Shown here: positions 4,702-63,578 of the stretch, one piece after another
Layout of the letters: the number at the start of each line of letters is the position of its first letter
Numbering within the stretch: the stretch's first letter is position 1
Assembly: GCA_022821065.1 (NCBI GenBank)
Contig: JAJEEK010000008.1
Coordinates: forward strand, 62,001 to 126,000
Direction: 5' to 3'
DNA: 64,000 nt
DNA from: Candidatus Poribacteria bacterium
Lineage (GTDB): Bacteria > Poribacteria > WGA-4E > WGA-3G
The notes under the pieces: generated by a model
The model's input: only the letters and a program-made list of their open reading frames with translations
Database searches by the model: none
Told to the model about the DNA's origin: nothing
Made by a program: the position numbers and the translations under genes

Positions 4702-4766
4702 AAGGGAACTTCTTCTATTTTTTGGTTACCGCGAAAACTTAACCCGTAATGAAATGGAAAGGTAAA

Positions 4767-6143
4767 TTAAAAAACTAACTCTGACCGGAATCGTCTGCCT
4801 AAACGTCCTTTGAGAGTACTGGTAATTTGGCGTTCCGACTGCGCAATATTGTTCAGCTCGTCAGGATCGTTTTCCAAATCGTATAATTCGGTTACGTCGT
4901 TGTAGTTTTCGATGAGTTTATGGGTCGCCGTGCGGATACACCGGAAACTTCGGAGGGCACTGACGGTTTCGGAGCGGTGCGTTTCAGTTTCACCACGGAG
5001 CAACGGTGCGATAGAGCGCGCATCAATTCGAGGTAACACCGGCACACCAGCAAAATCACAGATCGTCGGGTTCACGTCGATGAGCTCAATCAAACCGTCT
5101 GAAACCTGATTTTTTGGAATGCCAGGTCCAGCGACGATAAGTGGCACCCGTAGCGAGGCTTCATAAGCGACGCTCTTGGTGTAAAGTCCGTGATCACCGA
5201 GCATTTCGCCGTGGTCGCTCGAATAGATGATATAGGTATTGTCAAGCATTCCGCGCTGTTCGAGTGCACGAAGCATCTCGCCGATCTGGGCATCAATGAG
5301 TTCCGTCGCGGCACAGTATTGTTGTCGAGTTACAGCAATCTCTTCGGAACTGATATCCACAACGCGTCGCTTCACCCATTCAGGTTTTCCGTCCATATCG
5401 TCAACAATAGGCGGCGGCATCTCCGCATTCCGATATTTGTCGCCGTATTCGGTGGGAGGATCGAAGGGGTCATGGGGGCCGACGAAACTGACGAACATGT
5501 GCCACGGGAAGTCATCAGGAATGGTCTCGATAAATTCAGTTGCGCGCCTGCCGATATAGGTATCGGCGAAATCTTCTGTTGAGAGGACAGAATCGTGTGA
5601 ACCGTTTTTAATCCAGCTGCCGCGACTCCGTTTCCGATAATCTTCGTGAAACGCCTTGAGCATACCTTTTTCTTCCAGATAGTGGGTGTAGGGACCGATA
5701 GGTGTCGGCGAACTTCCGGCGTGCATCTTACCTTCACACTCTTCGGGATGCGTGAACCCCCAACTGTACGTGCGAGGTCGGTCGCCGTAGCGTCCGTTAT
5801 AACCGTCCGGTTTGGCGAGGTCGAGTTTTCCGACGCATCCGACACGATAGCCGTGGTCCCGGAGTTGCTGGTAGTAAGTCGGGACAGTAGCAGGCAAAAA
5901 ACTGCCGTTATCCACCGCTCCCAATCGAGAGGGTTGCAGACCGGATGCAAGTCCGATCCGTGAGGGGGCACAAACCGGTGCATTGACTGTACAGTTTGGA
6001 AAACTCACACCGGCTTCCGCTAACCGCCGGAGGTTAGGCGTATTGAGTGCCGGTGGCGCATTCTCAGCAGTTTCAAGATAGTCGTACCGGTGCTGGTCCG
6101 ACATGATGAAAAGAACGTTTGGTCTGTCAGTTTTTCGTGTCAT
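4767..6143 (-). CDS. Type I sulfatase (formylglycine-dependent)
   Basis: A 458-residue sulfatase of the alkaline-phosphatase superfamily that hydrolyses sulfate esters. The core motif C58-A-P-S-R62 supplies the cysteine converted to formylglycine. D16 (MSDQHR) and the later SSDHGEMLGDHG segment supply calcium ligands. I see no clear signal peptide, so it may be cytoplasmic or exported by another route. Such enzymes are abundant in bacteria that degrade sulfated polysaccharides or proteoglycans, and several small choline/phosphonate-type relatives exist, so substrate is open. The only sulfatase-modifying-factor-fold protein in the window (37098-38003) seems to lack the first active-site cysteine, so the maturase must be elsewhere. 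Confidence 0.92.
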   Translation of the reverse strand: MTRKTDRPNVLFIMSDQHRYDYLETAENAPPALNTPNLRRLAEAGVSFPNCTVNAPVCAPSRIGLASGLQPSRLGAVDNGSFLPATVPTYYQQLRDHGYRVGCVGKLDLAKPDGYNGRYGDRPRTYSWGFTHPEECEGKMHAGSSPTPIGPYTHYLEEKGMLKAFHEDYRKRSRGSWIKNGSHDSVLSTEDFADTYIGRRATEFIETIPDDFPWHMFVSFVGPHDPFDPPTEYGDKYRNAEMPPPIVDDMDGKPEWVKRRVVDISSEEIAVTRQQYCAATELIDAQIGEMLRALEQRGMLDNTYIIYSSDHGEMLGDHGLYTKSVAYEASLRVPLIVAGPGIPKNQVSDGLIELIDVNPTICDFAGVPVLPRIDARSIAPLLRGETETHRSETVSALRSFRCIRTATHKLIENYNDVTELYDLENDPDELNNIAQSERQITSTLKGRLGRRFRSELVF

Positions 6144-16710: not shown

Positions 16711-17062
16711 CGTGAGTCCTCCTTAGGAAAATAGAATATGCCGGTGGATTTTCAGCCAGAGGAGCCTAATTAGCCGGCATTCCGTTCATCGTTTCCAACA
16801 TTATACTAAATTTACAAAAAATGTCAACACTTTATTAATTTTTTTGTAGAAACACTCAGTTTTCAGGTTGTATCATATTAATATCATTGTTATAAATCTT
16901 GAATCCTTCAGAAATCGTCCTGGAAAAAGAGACGAAAAACTTGACAAACATCTGCAAATATGTAAAAATTGAAACCTGAAGCGATTAGCCTCATAATTGC
17001 AGGATGGCTTATTCAATATAGACTTGCAGTGTGAGAATTGGTATAATAGCAAGGAGGCAGAT
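16711..17062. other. Divergent intergenic region with promoters
   Basis: This 352-base gap separates the minus-strand TPR lipoprotein from the plus-strand dehydrogenase. It is AT-rich and holds the lipoprotein promoter at 16800-16827. On the plus strand a TTGACA at 16941-16946 and a TATAAT at 17042-17047 are visible but are not paired with each other at promoter spacing. I see no gene or RNA. Confidence 0.5.
16800..16827 (-). promoter_or_regulatory. Sigma-70 promoter of the TPR lipoprotein gene
   Basis: On the minus strand TTGACA (16822-16827) and TATAAT (16800-16805) are separated by 16 bases. Both hexamers match the consensus exactly. Confidence 0.8.
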
Positions 17063-17977
17063 ATGGCACAATCACAAAATAGGGCTGATTACAAAATCGG
17101 TGTTGTCGGTGTAGGAAGGATGGGTGCGAATATCGCACGGCATCTCAAGGATGAAGGATTTAACCTAACCGTTGTATACGATGTTGCGAGCGACCGCGCG
17201 CAAGAGCTCGCGGCGGAACTCGGTGCAACAGCAACAGAAAAACTAACGCAAGTTACAGCACTCGCTGATTACATCATCACTGTTGTTACGGACGATGCAG
17301 CAATGCGCACGATCTTTTCGGAAGACGCAGACGACAGTCTCCTCGAAAACGCGTCTCGGAAAGTCTTTATCAATTGTGCGACGATTAGTCCACAGGTCCA
17401 CGTGGATATTGAGCAGCTCGCGGCGAAGCACGGTGCAGAGAGCCTCGAAGGCTGCATGGCGAGCAGCATCACACAGGCGCGGGAAGGCACGCTGTACCTG
17501 ATGTGCGGTGGTAAGAAGGAAACATTTGACAAGGTGCGTCCGATTTTAGATTCAATGAGTGTCTCACTCCGTTACATCGGGGAGGCTGGACAGGCGGCAC
17601 AGGTCAAGGCACTCGTTAACATGGTGATGAACATCAACACTGCAGGACTTGCAGAAGGTCTCGGATTAGGGGCAGCACTCGGATTGGACCTGACGATGTT
17701 GCAAGAGGTGTTCTCGCAAACCGGAGCCAACTCACGTGTTTTGGAAACTGATGGAGAGGACATGGAAATCCGAGATCACGAGTGTTATTTCTCAGCTGCA
17801 CACGCTTCTAAAGATTCTGGTATTGCCCTTGATTTGGCAGACGAGGCAGGCATCTCTCTACCGCTTGCACAGGCGACAAAAGCACAATATGATCGGATGA
17901 TTGAACTCGGGCTGGGCGACTTGGATAAGTCCGGCATCGCCGAACTGACCTTCCCCGGACGAGGCGGAAAAAATTAA
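17063..17977 (+). CDS. 3-hydroxyisobutyrate dehydrogenase family oxidoreductase
   Basis: A 304-residue NAD(P)-dependent beta-hydroxyacid dehydrogenase. The dinucleotide motif GVGRMG is at residues 16-21, the substrate-site region reads CMASSITQAREGTL near 131, and the catalytic lysine is K182 in VKALVNMVMN. Family members oxidise 3-hydroxyisobutyrate, tartronate semialdehyde, 6-phosphogluconate-like or succinic semialdehyde substrates; nothing here decides which. I start at the ATG at 17063 because AAGGAGG (17051-17057) is ideally placed; the open frame extends further upstream (to 16997) without a ribosome-binding site. The next gene is preceded by a hairpin leader. Confidence 0.9.
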   Translation: MAQSQNRADYKIGVVGVGRMGANIARHLKDEGFNLTVVYDVASDRAQELAAELGATATEKLTQVTALADYIITVVTDDAAMRTIFSEDADDSLLENASRKVFINCATISPQVHVDIEQLAAKHGAESLEGCMASSITQAREGTLYLMCGGKKETFDKVRPILDSMSVSLRYIGEAGQAAQVKALVNMVMNINTAGLAEGLGLGAALGLDLTMLQEVFSQTGANSRVLETDGEDMEIRDHECYFSAAHASKDSGIALDLADEAGISLPLAQATKAQYDRMIELGLGDLDKSGIAELTFPGRGGKN

Positions 17978-18010
17978 AAGCGGCACGTTCTGAGTCAGCG
18001 TCGCTAATTA

Positions 18011-18060
18011 ACCAGAAATCTGCTCGAAATGGAATGGAGAGCAGAGCGGAGGCCCATAGT
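18011..18060 (+). other. Hairpin leader element upstream of the nucleotidyltransferase gene
   Basis: CTGCTC (18020-18025) pairs with GAGCAG (18039-18044) around a 13-base loop GAAATGGAATGGA. It is followed by GGAGGCCCATAGT just before the start codon at 18070. The same architecture with paired base changes and the same trailing CCATAGTT occurs at 43121-43203. See findings. Confidence 0.65.
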
Positions 18061-18069
18061 TAAAGAGTC

Positions 18070-18798
18070 ATGCTCAAAGGTGTCATCCTTGCGGGAGGAT
18101 TAGGAACCCGTTTATATCCGCTCACCAAAGTTACGAGTAAGCATCTCCTGCCGGTCGGTAACGAACCAATGATCTATCACAGTATCAAACAGCTCACAAC
18201 GGCAGGCGTTACCGATATTCTTATTGTAACGAATCCACAATACGTTGGGGATTTCGCCAATACGCTTGGTGGTGGGAAAAACTTCGGGTGCGAATTTACC
18301 TATCGAGTTCAAGAGGAGGCGAAAGGTATTGCGCATGCGCTTGCGTTAGCAGAGGGATTCGCCGCAGGCGGTCGAATCGTCGTTGTGTTAGGAGACAACA
18401 TTTTTGAATCCTCAATCCGACAGTCTGTTAACGATTTTCAAGCACAACAGCGCGGGGCGCGTGTATTGCTCAAACAGGTCTCGGACCCAAAGCGTTACGG
18501 TGTAGCGACCTTAAACGGTAACCGTATTGTTGCGATAGAGGAGAAACCGGAGCATCCGAAAAGCGATTACGCCGTGGTAGGTGTCTATTTTTACGATGCC
18601 TCAGTGTTTGATGTCATCCGTACAGTTGAACCTTCAGCGCGCGGAGAATATGAAATAACGGCTGTCAACAATGTTTACATTCAGCGGCACGAGCTTAAAT
18701 ACAGTCTCGTTCATGGGAAGTGGGTTGATGCAGGGACTTTCGACTCACTCACTGAAGCGCATCAGATTTTGTTGGATTCCGCAGGGCAGAAGTTATAA
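18070..18798 (+). CDS. Sugar-1-phosphate nucleotidyltransferase (RmlA-like)
   Basis: A 242-residue nucleotidyltransferase that couples an NTP to a sugar-1-phosphate, most like glucose-1-phosphate thymidylyltransferase. The nucleotide loop GVILAGGLGTRLYPLTK begins at residue 4, with LLPVGNEPMIYHSI after it, VVVLGDNIFE near 105, IEEKPEHPKS near 158 and the metal-site KWVDAGTFDSL near 218. It is about 50 residues shorter than housekeeping RmlA because the C-terminal allosteric helices are missing, as in the short-form enzymes of surface polysaccharide clusters. A glycosyltransferase follows, consistent with surface sugar synthesis. The start is weakly supported by a ribosome-binding site but sits right after the hairpin leader. 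Confidence 0.88.
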   Translation: MLKGVILAGGLGTRLYPLTKVTSKHLLPVGNEPMIYHSIKQLTTAGVTDILIVTNPQYVGDFANTLGGGKNFGCEFTYRVQEEAKGIAHALALAEGFAAGGRIVVVLGDNIFESSIRQSVNDFQAQQRGARVLLKQVSDPKRYGVATLNGNRIVAIEEKPEHPKSDYAVVGVYFYDASVFDVIRTVEPSARGEYEITAVNNVYIQRHELKYSLVHGKWVDAGTFDSLTEAHQILLDSAGQKL

Positions 18799-29621: not shown

Positions 29622-30458
29622 CTATTCGCGTGTTCTTTGTGCTTTGATGCTTGCCCATGTCGTGGTAAATTTGTCTTGCGGTTCAACGCTTACGACGGGT
29701 GTTGCATACGCCGCGAAATCGGCTGCATCAAAAGCCGAATTGTAAACAACGACTTCATCTATGATACCGCCGAAGTAGTGGATGTTAGTGCCTGCACCAT
29801 CTTCATCGTGGAAAACGGCGTTAGCGTTGACATGTGCGATACCGATATCGTCACCGTGTCCATAAAGTGCGCCACCATCTTCGCTGGCGATGAGTTCGCC
29901 GTTAAGCCACATCTCAAATTTACCGGGTTCAACTGCGTTTGTGGCCTCTCGGATAACTAAGCCGACGTGATACCATACACCGGACTCTACTGGCGCAGAT
30001 GGAAAAGCACCCGGCCACTGATATTCAGCACGGTTCCAACCGGCAACGTAGACCTGTCCATCAAAGACGTTGATAACAAGGCCGCGTGTCCGTCCGCCTT
30101 CTTCAAAGATCGTCTGCTTTTGTTCGGTAACATAGACATCAGTGCAGTTAAAGTAGGCAGCGATCGTCCGGTCGGTATAGAAATTGGGTTGTGCGAGCGT
30201 ATTGATACCTACGGAATCCGGGAGTTTGACACCATCATCGACGCCATCAAAGAGCAGTGCGGAGCCAACAATTCCGTCAACAACTTCTGGATCCCCGACG
30301 ATGTTTCCGTCTAAGCCTTTTCCAGAGCTGTCTGCGGCATCGCCGTTGTCAAAATTCCATTCCCCTTCAAGCGTCGCTTCGTCTTTTGCAGCATAAGAAA
30401 TCACGGCTACAAACATGAGTAAGAGACTAAGGATAAAAATAAAACGATATTTCACCAT
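29622..30458 (-). CDS. Secreted LamG domain protein with VEP...TTW tail (paralogue 1)
   Basis: A 278-residue exported protein with signal peptide RFIFILSLLLMFVAVISYAA, one LamG jellyroll (about 28-250; ATLEGEWNFDNGDAADSSGK to IIDEVVVYNSAFDAADF) and the C-terminal tail VSVEPQDKFTTTWASIKAQR. It is a close paralogue of the next gene (30517), including the LDGEW/NFDN start and the HFGGIIDEVVVYNSAFD end, so the pair arose by tandem duplication. LamG folds bind sugars or surface proteins; no catalytic residues are seen. Upstream spacing is 58 bases from the paralogue, so they are probably transcribed together. Confidence 0.87.
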   Translation of the reverse strand: MVKYRFIFILSLLLMFVAVISYAAKDEATLEGEWNFDNGDAADSSGKGLDGNIVGDPEVVDGIVGSALLFDGVDDGVKLPDSVGINTLAQPNFYTDRTIAAYFNCTDVYVTEQKQTIFEEGGRTRGLVINVFDGQVYVAGWNRAEYQWPGAFPSAPVESGVWYHVGLVIREATNAVEPGKFEMWLNGELIASEDGGALYGHGDDIGIAHVNANAVFHDEDGAGTNIHYFGGIIDEVVVYNSAFDAADFAAYATPVVSVEPQDKFTTTWASIKAQRTRE

Positions 30459-30516
30459 TGTGACATATCTCCTTTATAGGTTGTTATTGTTAAATAACGC
30501 AATTCTGATATTGAGG

Positions 30517-31350
30517 TTACTTTTGTGTCCGTTGGGCTTTTAGTGCTGCCCAAGTCGTTGTAAATTTGCCTTGCGGTTCAACGCTTAAGCCTTGCGCGGC
30601 TTTACTAAAATCACCTTGGTCGAAAGCGGAACCGTAAACAACAACTTCGTCAATCAGACCTTCAAACCAATCAATATTAGTTCCACTGCCGCCTTCATCG
30701 TGGTAAACAGCGTTCTGGTTGGTGAATCCGATCCCGATGTCGTCGCCGTGGGCGTGGAGTTGTCCGCCCGATTCCTTGCTGACCAGTTTTCCATCGAGCC
30801 ACATCTCAAATTTGTCTTTCTCCACTTTACCAGACGCGTTGCGAATGACCAAGCCGACGTGATACCAACGCTTGGACTTAACTTCGGCAGAGATCCATTC
30901 GCCGTTCCAGTTATATTCGGCACGGTTCCAGCCGCCGACATAAACCTCTCCATCAAATACATAAATCACTAAGCCGCGTGTGCGTCCACCCTCTTCAAAA
31001 ATTACCTGTTTCCGACTGTCAATCCCCACATCATCACAGTTGAAGTATGCAGCGACTGTCCGGTCGGTGTAGGGACCACCGGAATTAATGTCCGCGGAAT
31101 CCGGAATCTTTATACCGTCATCTTCACCGTTGAATTCCAAAGCTTTTCCAACGATACCCTCAACAGATTTTGGCTTTCCAGCAAAGTTCCCGTTGAGTCC
31201 TTTTTTTGAACTATCTTTGGCAGTGCCATCGTCGAATGTCCAGTTCCCTGCGACTGTTGCTTCATCGCGCTGCGCATCCGCAGGCATAATCGGTAATAGT
31301 ACGCACAATAATAGCACAATACTTCCTATGCAAATTAATCCTCGAATCAT
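30517..31350 (-). CDS. Secreted LamG domain protein with VEP...TTW tail (paralogue 2)
   Basis: A 277-residue exported protein: signal peptide (residues 1-26, LICIGSIVLLLCVLLPIMPA), one LamG domain and the tail LSVEPQGKFTTTWAALKAQR. It aligns end to end with the gene at 29622, sharing EEGGRTRGLVI, WYHVGLVIR and DEVVVYGSAFD blocks, while linker regions differ, so the duplication is not recent. It is the first gene of the pair in transcription order. A role in surface display or matrix adhesion is inferred from the fold alone. Confidence 0.87.
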   Translation of the reverse strand: MIRGLICIGSIVLLLCVLLPIMPADAQRDEATVAGNWTFDDGTAKDSSKKGLNGNFAGKPKSVEGIVGKALEFNGEDDGIKIPDSADINSGGPYTDRTVAAYFNCDDVGIDSRKQVIFEEGGRTRGLVIYVFDGEVYVGGWNRAEYNWNGEWISAEVKSKRWYHVGLVIRNASGKVEKDKFEMWLDGKLVSKESGGQLHAHGDDIGIGFTNQNAVYHDEGGSGTNIDWFEGLIDEVVVYGSAFDQGDFSKAAQGLSVEPQGKFTTTWAALKAQRTQK

Positions 31351-41699: not shown

Positions 41700-42050
41700 A
41701 TGCCAGATGAACCGACCCCTTATAAAGATGTGGAAGACCAACTCATCTTACGGGATCACCTCGCTGCAGACCGAACGATCCTTGCCAACGAGCGAACTTT
41801 TCTCGCGTATATTCGTACGGCACTAACGCTGTTTGTCGCCGGTTTATCCTTTGTACATTTCAAAGACATCTTTAGCACGCAGGTCGCTATCTTTAGTTCA
41901 CATGTTGTTGAGGTCATCGGCATCGTCTTTATTCTACTCGGTATTGCTACCTTTTTTGTTGGGCTTGTGAGATACAGGCGTATGCGAACACTCATTTATA
42001 AAATCAAACAGGCGGAACTTAAAGAATTAGAGGAAAAAGAAATATCATGA
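41700..42050 (+). CDS. DUF202 family inner-membrane protein
   Basis: A 116-residue protein with the DUF202 signature LAADRTILANERTFLAYIRTALTL followed by two more hydrophobic segments, giving three membrane passes. Relatives include E. coli YidH and yeast-type small vacuolar proteins; function is unknown. It overlaps the next gene by 4 bases (ATGA). The small hydrophobic gene upstream may form a pair with it. Confidence 0.85.
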   Translation: MPDEPTPYKDVEDQLILRDHLAADRTILANERTFLAYIRTALTLFVAGLSFVHFKDIFSTQVAIFSSHVVEVIGIVFILLGIATFFVGLVRYRRMRTLIYKIKQAELKELEEKEIS

Positions 42051-43075
42051 AAATAAGAGAAGTCGTTGTAACCAGTCAGAACCAAGTCGAATTACAGACC
42101 AACGACATAGACGCGCCGGTGCTTGCTGCCGATGAGTTATTGATAGACACAGAATATACTTTTATTAGTAGTGGAACAGAACTCGCGAACTATACCGGCA
42201 GAGAACCAAAAGTTTTTCAAGAGGGTTCGTGGTGTGCCTATCCATGGCGTTCTGGCTATGCGAATGTCGGAATCGTACGCGAAATCGGTTCCGGCGTTAC
42301 CCGCGCGGCTGTTGGGGACCGCGTTTTTACTTATGGACGACACGCTTCAACGATCCGCTATTCGCAAGATCGGCTCGTCGCACCTGTTAAAGAAGCGGTA
42401 GACCCAGCAGTTATTGCAGCATCACGGATGGCGGGGGTTGCGATGACAGCGATCGTTGTCGGAGAAATCGGGACGAACCCGTGGGTCATCGTTTTCGGAT
42501 TGGGACTCGTCGGGAATCTGGCATCGCAGATGTTTCAGATTCACGGTTGCCGCGTCATCGGCGTTGATCCGGTAGCAGCGCGGCGTAAACTGGCGCAGTG
42601 CTGCGGGATTGAAGCCACCGTCGGTGGAACCGCTGATGAGGCACAAGCACAGATACAGGAAATCACGGGCGGTGAACTCGGCGATATTACTGTTGATGCG
42701 GTGGGACATAGTGGGGTCGTTATGCAGGCACTCCGTGCGACTGCTAACTATGGGCAGATCATCATTCTTGGGTCGCCGCGTGTCTCGGTACATGGAGATT
42801 TGACTGAACTGCTATCCGACACGCATCTACGCTGGATTACGATCCGCGGCGCATTAGAGTGGTGCGTGCCAATGTATCCAGACATCGGCAACCGAACGTC
42901 TCAATGGAGCAAACAACAGACTATTTTTGATTGGATGGCGCGCGGGCAGCTACACGTCGAACCGTTAATCTCGCACCGCCTCAAACCCGAAAATATTAAA
43001 CAGGCTTACGACGGTCTCCTGAATGAACCCAATGTATATACAGGGGTTGTTTTAGATTGGAAATCCTCGTCTTAG
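42047..43075 (+). CDS. Zinc-type alcohol dehydrogenase-like protein (MDR)
   Basis: A 342-residue medium-chain dehydrogenase/reductase. The GroES-like domain runs to about 150 (SSGTELANYTG, YANVGIVREIG, AAVGDRVFTYG) and the Rossmann domain carries VFGLGLVGNLASQMFQIHG near 150 and RVIGVDP. The catalytic-zinc cysteine and histidine of true alcohol dehydrogenases are absent: positions read SSGTEL and RHASTIR, so it is probably a zinc-independent or sugar-type MDR. It is coupled to the DUF202 gene. A second, related dehydrogenase is at 49816. Confidence 0.83.
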   Translation: MKIREVVVTSQNQVELQTNDIDAPVLAADELLIDTEYTFISSGTELANYTGREPKVFQEGSWCAYPWRSGYANVGIVREIGSGVTRAAVGDRVFTYGRHASTIRYSQDRLVAPVKEAVDPAVIAASRMAGVAMTAIVVGEIGTNPWVIVFGLGLVGNLASQMFQIHGCRVIGVDPVAARRKLAQCCGIEATVGGTADEAQAQIQEITGGELGDITVDAVGHSGVVMQALRATANYGQIIILGSPRVSVHGDLTELLSDTHLRWITIRGALEWCVPMYPDIGNRTSQWSKQQTIFDWMARGQLHVEPLISHRLKPENIKQAYDGLLNEPNVYTGVVLDWKSSS

Positions 43076-43120: not shown

Positions 43121-43203
43121 ATCAGAAACCTGCCCGAAACGAAGTGCAGGGCAGCCCAGGGGACCATAGTTTAAAAAACAGCCCAGGAGCAATAGTTTAA
43201 AAA
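43121..43203 (+). other. Hairpin leader and tandem repeat upstream of the WD40 gene
   Basis: CTGCCC (43130-43135) pairs with GGGCAG (43149-43154) around a 13-base loop GAAACGAAGTGCA. A unit CAGCCCAGG...ATAGTTTAAAAA follows and is duplicated in tandem (43152-43178 and 43179-43203), ending directly at the start codon. The same hairpin plan, with compensating changes and the same CCATAGTT tail, is at 18011-18060. Confidence 0.65.
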
Positions 43204-44097
43204 ATGGAAAAAACAGACCTGTTTCAAAATTACATCGAATCTGAGTTACCACCCGGACTGAAGGCGCGGCTCGAAAAAAAGCAAGTGACAGACATCGCGT
43301 TCTCGCCAGACGGCACACGCATCGCTGCAGGTGGCGATGGACGCATCTGGATATATGATACCGCCAGTGGCTCACAATTTGCCATGCTCTCAGGCTATAC
43401 GGAACGGATACGCGCGTTGGCGTTTGCACCGGATAACTCGCTGCTTGCGAGTGGGAGTGAAGATAATACACTCCGATTGTGGGATACTGAGACGGCTCGT
43501 GAGGTGCTGACACTCGCTGGCAATTCCAATTTGGTGCAAGCGTTAGCGTCTTCATCACCCGACGGTGTGCCGTTGCCGGGGTGGGACCCGCGGACGGAAC
43601 GGTTGCTTGCGACGCCCGCTGAAGCACCCGGACGCATTCGGAGTTTAGCATTCTCCCCGGATGGTGCAACGCTTGCAAGTGGCAGTGGTGACGGCAAAAT
43701 TCGGTTGTGGGAAGTCGAAACCGGGCGGCTCCTGTCAACATTCTCAGCACACGATGGACTTGTTTTGGCGTTGGAATTTTCGCCACAAGGGAAGTCGCTG
43801 GCAAGTGGTGGTTCGGATACACTCGTTCGATTGTGGGATATGGGCGATAAGCATCTGATTTCGCTCTTAAGAGGACATACCGACTCGGTCAGTGCACTGA
43901 CATTTTCTGGTGATGGCGAATTGCTTGTGAGTGGTGGAAGAGACCGGCACCTTCAGGTATGGGATGTCGGTACGGATGCCCTAATTTCGTCATTTCCGAT
44001 AGCGGAAGGTGCCGTCCAAGAATTAGTGTTTTCAGAAGATGATACCAAACTGATATGTATAACACACGGTGGCCCGCTTCTTATACGAGACCGATAA
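43204..44097 (+). CDS. WD40 repeat protein
   Basis: A 297-residue protein of seven-bladed beta-propeller type; WD40 units are visible as IAFSPDGTRIAAGGDGRIWIYD, ALAFAPDNSLLASGSEDNTLRLWD, SLAFSPDGATLASGSGDGKIRLWE and LEFSPQGKSLASGGSDTLVRLWD. No catalytic domain, signal peptide or membrane segment is present, so it should be cytosolic or partner-bound. It is the first of two WD40 genes; the second overlaps or starts just after it. Scaffold roles are typical for such proteins. The hairpin leader just upstream may regulate it. Confidence 0.85.
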   Translation: MEKTDLFQNYIESELPPGLKARLEKKQVTDIAFSPDGTRIAAGGDGRIWIYDTASGSQFAMLSGYTERIRALAFAPDNSLLASGSEDNTLRLWDTETAREVLTLAGNSNLVQALASSSPDGVPLPGWDPRTERLLATPAEAPGRIRSLAFSPDGATLASGSGDGKIRLWEVETGRLLSTFSAHDGLVLALEFSPQGKSLASGGSDTLVRLWDMGDKHLISLLRGHTDSVSALTFSGDGELLVSGGRDRHLQVWDVGTDALISSFPIAEGAVQELVFSEDDTKLICITHGGPLLIRDR

Positions 44098-63502: not shown

Positions 63503-63578
63503 TTTTTTAAATTTTCCTTGCGGTTTGTTGAGGTTAACTTGGCAAAAGATGTGCTTCTTCGTAGCGTCCCTCTCCAGA

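Follow-up and report, generated by a model that had tools for sequence, protein, structure and literature searches.

The two hairpin leaders found in the window, by which we mean the whole stretch of 64,000 nucleotides analysed here, are members of a real repeat family that extends across a genus of sponge-dwelling Poribacteria. The copies of this family, hereafter family A, are probably half-units of a non-autonomous mobile repeat, similar to REPINs or small MITEs, with its outer ends placed at gene edges. Copy number varies between genomes, orthologous genes differ in presence and absence of the repeat, copies pair into inverted doublets, the hairpin covaries between copies, and insertion occurs at the edges of stop codons and ATGs. 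An element of this sort is known in kind, and what is new is its location at start codons.

Two Copies in the Window and Their Neighbours

Copy 1 occupies the 92-nt gap between two genes of the forward strand, namely a 3-hydroxyisobutyrate-dehydrogenase-like gene (NAD_binding_2 and NAD_binding_11; 16997..17977, stop codon TAA at 17975-17977) and an RmlA-like sugar-nucleotidyltransferase gene (NTP_transferase, PF00483; 18070..18798), whose ATG at 18070 abuts the repeat. The half-unit (18011..18069, forward strand) consists of CAGAAA, the hairpin, a Shine-Dalgarno (SD)-like GGAGG at 18048-18052 and a CCATAGTTAAAG tail that runs up to the ATG, while the left, inner part of the gap, AAGCGGCACGTTCTGAGTCAGCGTCGCTAATTA (17978..18010, forward strand), is related to ...AGTCGCGTTGGAATTAACC, the consensus of the inner arm elsewhere in the family. 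The hairpin (18020..18044, forward strand) has a 6-bp stem formed by CTGCTC (18020-18025) and GAGCAG (18039-18044) around the 13-nt loop GAAATGGAATGGA (18026-18038), in which a GAA/GGA purine mismatch, inner A-T and T-A pairs and a GGA triloop can be recognised; 3' of the stem, CCATAGTT lies at 18054-18061.

Copy 2 is likewise flanked by co-directional genes of the forward strand, with a zinc-binding dehydrogenase (ADH_zinc_N; 42047..43075) on its 5' side and a WD40-repeat gene (43204..44097) on its 3' side. Its first right end (CCATAGTTTAAAAAA; 43121..43177, forward strand) contains the hairpin (43130..43154, forward strand), made of CTGCCC (43130-43135), the loop GAAACGAAGTGCA (43136-43148) and GGGCAG (43149-43154), and is followed by CCATAGTT at 43164-43171. 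The tail of this copy is a tandem duplication (CAGCCCAGGGGACCATAGTTTAAAAAA / CAGCCCAGGAGCAATAGTTTAAAAA), and the duplicate right-end module (CAGCCCAGGAGCAATAGTTTAAAAA; 43178..43203, forward strand) terminates exactly at the ATG at 43204, so that the start codon lies further from the hairpin than in copy 1. Both hairpins had been located correctly in the original prediction, which exchanged the two loops between the copies. The WD40 gene is split between two frames that overlap or adjoin each other (43204-44097 and 44069/44210-45496), which may reflect a frameshift.

A degenerate third copy (CCGTAATGAAATGGAAAGG...AAATTAAAAA; 4733..4769, forward strand) has its right end against the stop of a reverse-strand gene (4767-6143); its model score is at noise level and it is assigned by loop motif and gene-edge position. 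A right end of a sister family, hereafter family B (ACCGCAAGGAAAATTTAAAAAA followed directly by ATG; 63503..63578, reverse strand), has no recognisable hairpin and fills a TGA-to-ATG gap. Elsewhere in the window, positions 29622-31350 hold a tandem pair of paralogous reverse-strand genes offset by ~892-895 bp. Since the copy pattern at up to three mismatches is expected 0.74 times by chance in the window, the two window copies taken alone represent weak evidence for a family.

Copy Number and Distribution

With copy 1 as the query, a whole-genome BLAST retrieved another copy at E = 1e-12, with further matches below it, and a strict, degenerate pattern of the core gave 37 matches in the whole genome versus 5 for a reversed-pattern control. 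A covariance model built from 12 copies, the check that had been proposed along with the original prediction, found ~45 credible family A copies in this 5.1-Mb genome; the two window copies score 74-76 bits, values that are not independent as both copies are among the model seeds. A complete relative genome gave 110 matches at E<=1, ~100 of which at E<=0.01. Family A is present in 38 of 38 genomes of one Poribacteria genus, with per-genome counts that range from 1 (in the genome labelled G022) to at least 55, while 60 genomes of other genera and families gave two marginal matches only (E ~1e-3). In a pattern scan of GTDB the matches listed were in Poribacteria records only. No covariance model of Rfam 15 matched any of ten element loci at E<=1, and viral contigs in IMG/VR contained 0 exact matches, on which basis a phage or viral source was rejected.

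Placement at Start and Stop Codons

The position of the copies relative to genes was determined with gene edges from a simple codon-based caller made for this analysis, rather than from published annotation. By these edges, of 151 copies 92 point towards the start of a gene, while 44 are reversed and point towards a gene stop; among the copies for which a right-hand gene was called, those reversed against a stop make up about a third (~30%). Among start-side copies, the ATG falls between -6 and +1 nt from the model end in 59 of 84, as compared to ~5.7 expected upon uniform placement in the same gaps. As the model includes the ATG, placement was rechecked on 116 copies picked by the hairpin only, and the ATG was found 20-24 nt 3' of the stem in 55 of 78 start-side copies. 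Similarly, 35 of the 44 reversed copies have a stop codon between -18 and +2 nt. The gaps that bear the element are more often co-directional than all gaps at the same loci (100/107 versus 484/578; p = 0.002), and the genes downstream of the copies are unrelated to one another. The suggestion of a small mobile repeat that prefers the 5' ends of genes is thus strongly supported. The original prediction had also named what would speak against it, namely a lack of further copies, random placement relative to genes or a lack of compensating changes, and none of these was found.

Other repeats behave in a similar manner, as at gene starts orthologous to element sites in four genomes (G005, G018, G022 and G029) tails ending in ...CTGACAACTAATAAAAACTATG and ...AACTTATAACCAATAAATG also stop at start codons.

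The Inverted Doublet as the Probable Unit

Close neighbours (<=300 bp) are divergent in 24 cases and in any other orientation in 5. These doublets are inverted repeats with the tails pointing outward, usually ~160 bp long, and in the complete genome most of them are spaced ~101 bp start-to-start. Many doublets have a stop codon before their left tip and the ATG of the following gene after their right tip, and they often fill the entire stop-to-start gap between co-directional genes; a doublet lies between atpD and atpC both in this genome and in G018. A complete unit would then run from the outer end TTTTTAACTAT through one hairpin half, ~41 nt of spacer and the inverted hairpin half to the outer end ATAGTTAAAAA. 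Half-units are commoner than doublets, and solo copies, including both in the window, would represent half-units or remnants that now reside in 5' regions. No long doublet with a gene inside was found among the matches of the complete genome. An arrangement in which the gene is a cassette with a repeat on both sides was rejected as well, given that no inverted copy lies 3' of either window gene and the doublets sit in gaps. In a separate arrangement (L215 / L296; C120 of G019), the family A core is triplicated head-to-tail beside a gene edge, with a period of 49 nt.

Hairpin Structure and Covariation

The consensus of the family reads (A)TTAACCAGAAACC, a six-base stem, GAA, AC-GNA-GT, GGA, the second strand of the stem, two to five bases, CAGRGGCCCATAGTTAAAAA and ATG, and the apex is a Y-GNA-R mini-hairpin behind the GAA/GGA mismatch. 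In DNA, C-GNA-G caps are unusually stable, as are sheared G.A mismatches. The apex and mismatch of family A are alike in sequence to such DNA mini-hairpins and sheared G.A motifs, a likeness that is a resemblance only.

The change from C-G to T-A between the stems of the window copies, from which a conserved RNA or DNA structure had been predicted, is one of many in the family, and the prediction is borne out by the wider set. In 120 distinct copies, whose alignment was fitted to the model and is to that extent biased towards structure, although the effect is far larger than such a bias, 98.4% of the stem cells are paired versus 73.8% in shuffled sets, all 8 stem pairs have two-sided changes, and cells with two-sided changes number 238 as compared to 87.5 in shuffles. 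The pairing signal is destroyed by sliding the partner by one to three columns. The molecule on which selection would act is less clear. G.T cells (14) are not clearly commoner than A.C cells (7), with G.U pairs being rare (1.5% of cells), and therefore selection at the level of RNA is not shown. Folding energies are moderately better than those of shuffles with both DNA and RNA parameters (z about -2 to -2.8) and do not discriminate between the two.

At a fixed site the picture is different. The 13 orthologous copies at the RmlA-like junction, from 13 species, have 97% paired cells and 0 two-sided changes, together with three cells that do not pair and a 5-nt stem deletion; this test of compensation in place has low power, as few positions vary. 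The lack of compensation and the broken pairs indicate that the hairpin is not visibly defended at this site. The covariation is thus one between copies, as expected if the structure matters while copies move and old copies decay.

In some copies the cap is exchanged for another hairpin, or a unit of ~43 nt is nested in the loop. This third short hairpin unit (AAATTNTG..CANAATTTGTCTTTGCTTTACATTT) is nested at one fixed point of the apical loop of family A hairpins at loci L068, L071, L072, L075 and L078, and in G005 at the L045 site (L193).

Filled and Empty Alleles

The junction 5' of the RmlA-like gene was compared in 30 genomes, of which 14 have family A, one with a further, nested insertion in the loop, 11 are empty and 5 have a family B end. 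The 11 empty alleles consist of TAA, a 3-nt gap and ATG. TTAA is found at both borders of the insertion, and TTAA or CTAA at the empty site, which hints at a target-site duplication, although the border letters may belong to the ends of the element. TTAA was considered as a general target and rejected, as at other sites the ATG of the empty allele has no such tetranucleotide close by. The empty genome G026 nests inside a filled clade at this junction, so that the empty state may not be ancestral in every case. When 18 sites of this genome were compared with five relatives, most of the copies recurred in the closest relative; G022 and G029 lack most of them, and there the ATG of the orthologous gene is often the end point of a different repeat. 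The proS site is occupied in four genomes, with stems that differ and are intact. Collectively, these comparisons indicate that family A comes and goes at orthologous genes.

In five RmlA-like orthologues (G008, G010, G017, G031 and G035, at loci L147, L146, L139, L136 and L140) the family B tail is now coding, the start having moved upstream such that the N-terminus M-F-N-R-K-E-K-L-K-G-V reads through ACCGCAAGGAAAAATTAAAA.

The Tail as a Possible Translation Start Region

GGAG is present in the last codons of the upstream gene, where the SD of a following gene would naturally lie, in 11 of 11 empty RmlA-like alleles and in 1 of 13 intact filled ones. Since the motif is lost in 12 of 13 intact filled alleles, and the family A tail at this junction has GGAGG, the sequences suggest that the tail of the element may have taken over the SD role at the RmlA-like gene. 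Across the family, 27 of 62 start-side copies contain an SD-like motif, as compared to 6 of 35 on the stop side (p = 0.013). Two points speak against such a role, namely that the motif is lacking from many copies at gene starts and that the GGAG of the tail is spaced 13-15 nt from the start, longer than the norm of ~7 in the genus.

A Sister Family with a Different Tail

The tail of family B, ACCGCAAGGNANNNTTAAAAA, occurs 91 times in this genome and 140 times in G018, and the control gave no matches. Family B shares the hairpin core with family A; after the core comes a tail that ends in ACCGCAAGGAAAATTTAAAAA at an ATG or at a reversed stop, and in many cases the tail ends at start or stop codons. 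A GTAG tag usually precedes the core in family B (18 of 28 copies) and is present in 0 of 102 family A copies. As judged from the positions of the matches, mixed A/B doublets exist. Some family B tails are tandemly duplicated with a 20-bp unit, and G018 has a seven-copy family B array with a period of 142 bp. A region between two family B ends (C37:63990-64924) was considered as an autonomous element and rejected, as it contains a peptidyl-tRNA hydrolase-like frame that runs through the second end, and no transposase.

Comparison with Known Systems

The closest match to family A is represented by REPINs and GTAG-REPs, as it is a short, high-copy, extragenic palindromic hairpin that forms inverted doublets with set spacing; of the GTAG tag and a neighbouring RAYT (Y1) gene, which also characterise REPs and REPINs, neither was found for family A, in 102 copies and at 45 Y1 loci respectively. 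Similarly to REPINs, the family consists of short hairpin repeats restricted to the level of a genus, with inverted doublets and their spacer as the probable unit, singlets as remnants, tandem clusters and compensatory changes between copies (PMC3116915). REPINs have been described as scattered through extragenic space (Bertels and Rainey 2011, PMC3116915), whereas the ends of family A touch start and stop codons. GTAG-REPs and BIMEs are also imperfect palindromes with a conserved internal mismatch, located between unidirectional genes (PMC3733652, PMC8266576), and the termini of GTAG-REPs are able to supply a stop codon (Di Nocera 2013, PMC3733652; TnpAREP, PMC8266576). In this case, the difference is that GTAG-REPs are for the most part located 3' of genes, with no set distance to the following start, while for family A the next start codon is the fixed point.

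An association with Y1/RAYT transposases was rejected: 45 distinct Y1_Tnp loci, which include every one from three genomes and are part of the Y1 loci of the genus, had no family A hairpin within their 1.5 kb flanks (0/45). Bacterial MITEs such as Chunjie, ERIC, Correia and RUP are likewise non-autonomous and intergenic, with AT-rich inverted ends, entry into operons and nested insertions (PMC10969869). Inverted ends are present in family A too, whose arms, unlike those of bacterial MITEs, hold covarying hairpins, and no autonomous element was seen in the match spacing of the complete genome or in the one candidate region. A review of MITEs does not mention start codons or describe precise placement at them (PMC10969869), and a literature search found no publication on these repeats in Poribacteria.

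Mobile Repeat or Regulatory Leader

The reading as half-units of a mobile repeat leads to a possible mechanism, in which a trans-acting transposase would recognise the folded hairpin through its stem, GAA/GGA mismatch and C-GNA-G cap. As with REP hairpins, the recognised form would most likely be single-stranded DNA. The sequence of the stem would be free to vary while pairing is retained in copies that are still mobile. The outer end could supply an SD-like purine motif 12-15 nt 5' of the ATG and an A-rich run (TTAAAAA), with the insertion falling between the gene's own SD and its start codon, and the original SD could decay afterwards. We infer that an insertion of this kind is tolerated since a substitute initiation region comes with it.

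A translation-control leader or protein-binding RNA had also been proposed. This would be an autoregulatory leader of a scattered regulon, inherited with its genes, and the strongly paired and covarying hairpin, the constant distance to the ATG within a stop-to-start gap, and the sites kept across species, such as proS in four genomes with differing intact stems, would all fit. As the primary nature of the family this explanation did not hold up, and we regard it as quite unlikely. Indeed, it leaves unexplained the third of the copies that are reversed against stop codons, the absence of the element from 11 of 30 orthologous RmlA-like junctions, and the lack of compensation in place among 13 orthologous copies, with their broken stems and 5-nt deletion; copy number that goes from 1 to at least 55 between species, the unrelated genes, the rarity of G.U pairs (1.5% of cells) and the absence of an Rfam match also argue against it.

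A DNA element of another class has to be considered as well. A classical MITE of a DDE insertion sequence, with TTTTTAACTAT as its inverted ends and TTAA as its target duplication, would account for the inverted ends, the doublets of ~160 bp and the TTAA at both RmlA-like insertion borders, matched by TTAA or CTAA at the empty site. A covarying hairpin within each arm is, however, unusual for DDE inverted repeats, half-units outnumber doublets, no parental insertion sequence was seen, and TTAA is missing near the ATG of empty alleles at other sites, which makes this origin unlikely, albeit less so than the regulatory leader. Very improbable, by contrast, are attC sites like those of integrons, that is, hairpins that lie between co-directional cassette genes and undergo recombination in the form of single-stranded DNA. 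Gaps between co-directional genes, folded hairpins and GTTAAAA/TTTTAAC ends that resemble GTTRRRY/RYYYAAC speak in their favour; yet the sites are dispersed in housekeeping operons (atpD-atpC, proS) without forming arrays, each unit has two hairpins, and integrons are excluded by the missing integrase, as TIGR02249 was above its curated cut-off in 0 of 38 genomes.

Implications for Gene Starts in the Genus

Beyond the identification of family A as a probable mobile repeat, a broader and more tentative possibility is that mobile DNA is targeted to translation start sites in this genus, with at least two tail families (A and B) whose hairpin repeats would insert at the base preceding a start codon or following a stop codon and carry along a portable initiation region; in the course of evolution, genes throughout the genus would thereby exchange native start regions for ones derived from repeats. 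The presence of family A at the RmlA-like start in some species and of family B in others fits with repeated targeting of start codons.

The usual view of REPs, REPINs and MITEs is that of passengers which are tolerated 3' of genes. Coincidence with start codons at base resolution would instead point to a mobile element able to enter gene-dense operons by supplying the translation needs of the next gene, and it poses the concrete puzzle of what positions a DNA insertion at a start codon. The filled and empty alleles of one gene across some 38 species may thus represent a natural experiment on the evolution of the translation start region.
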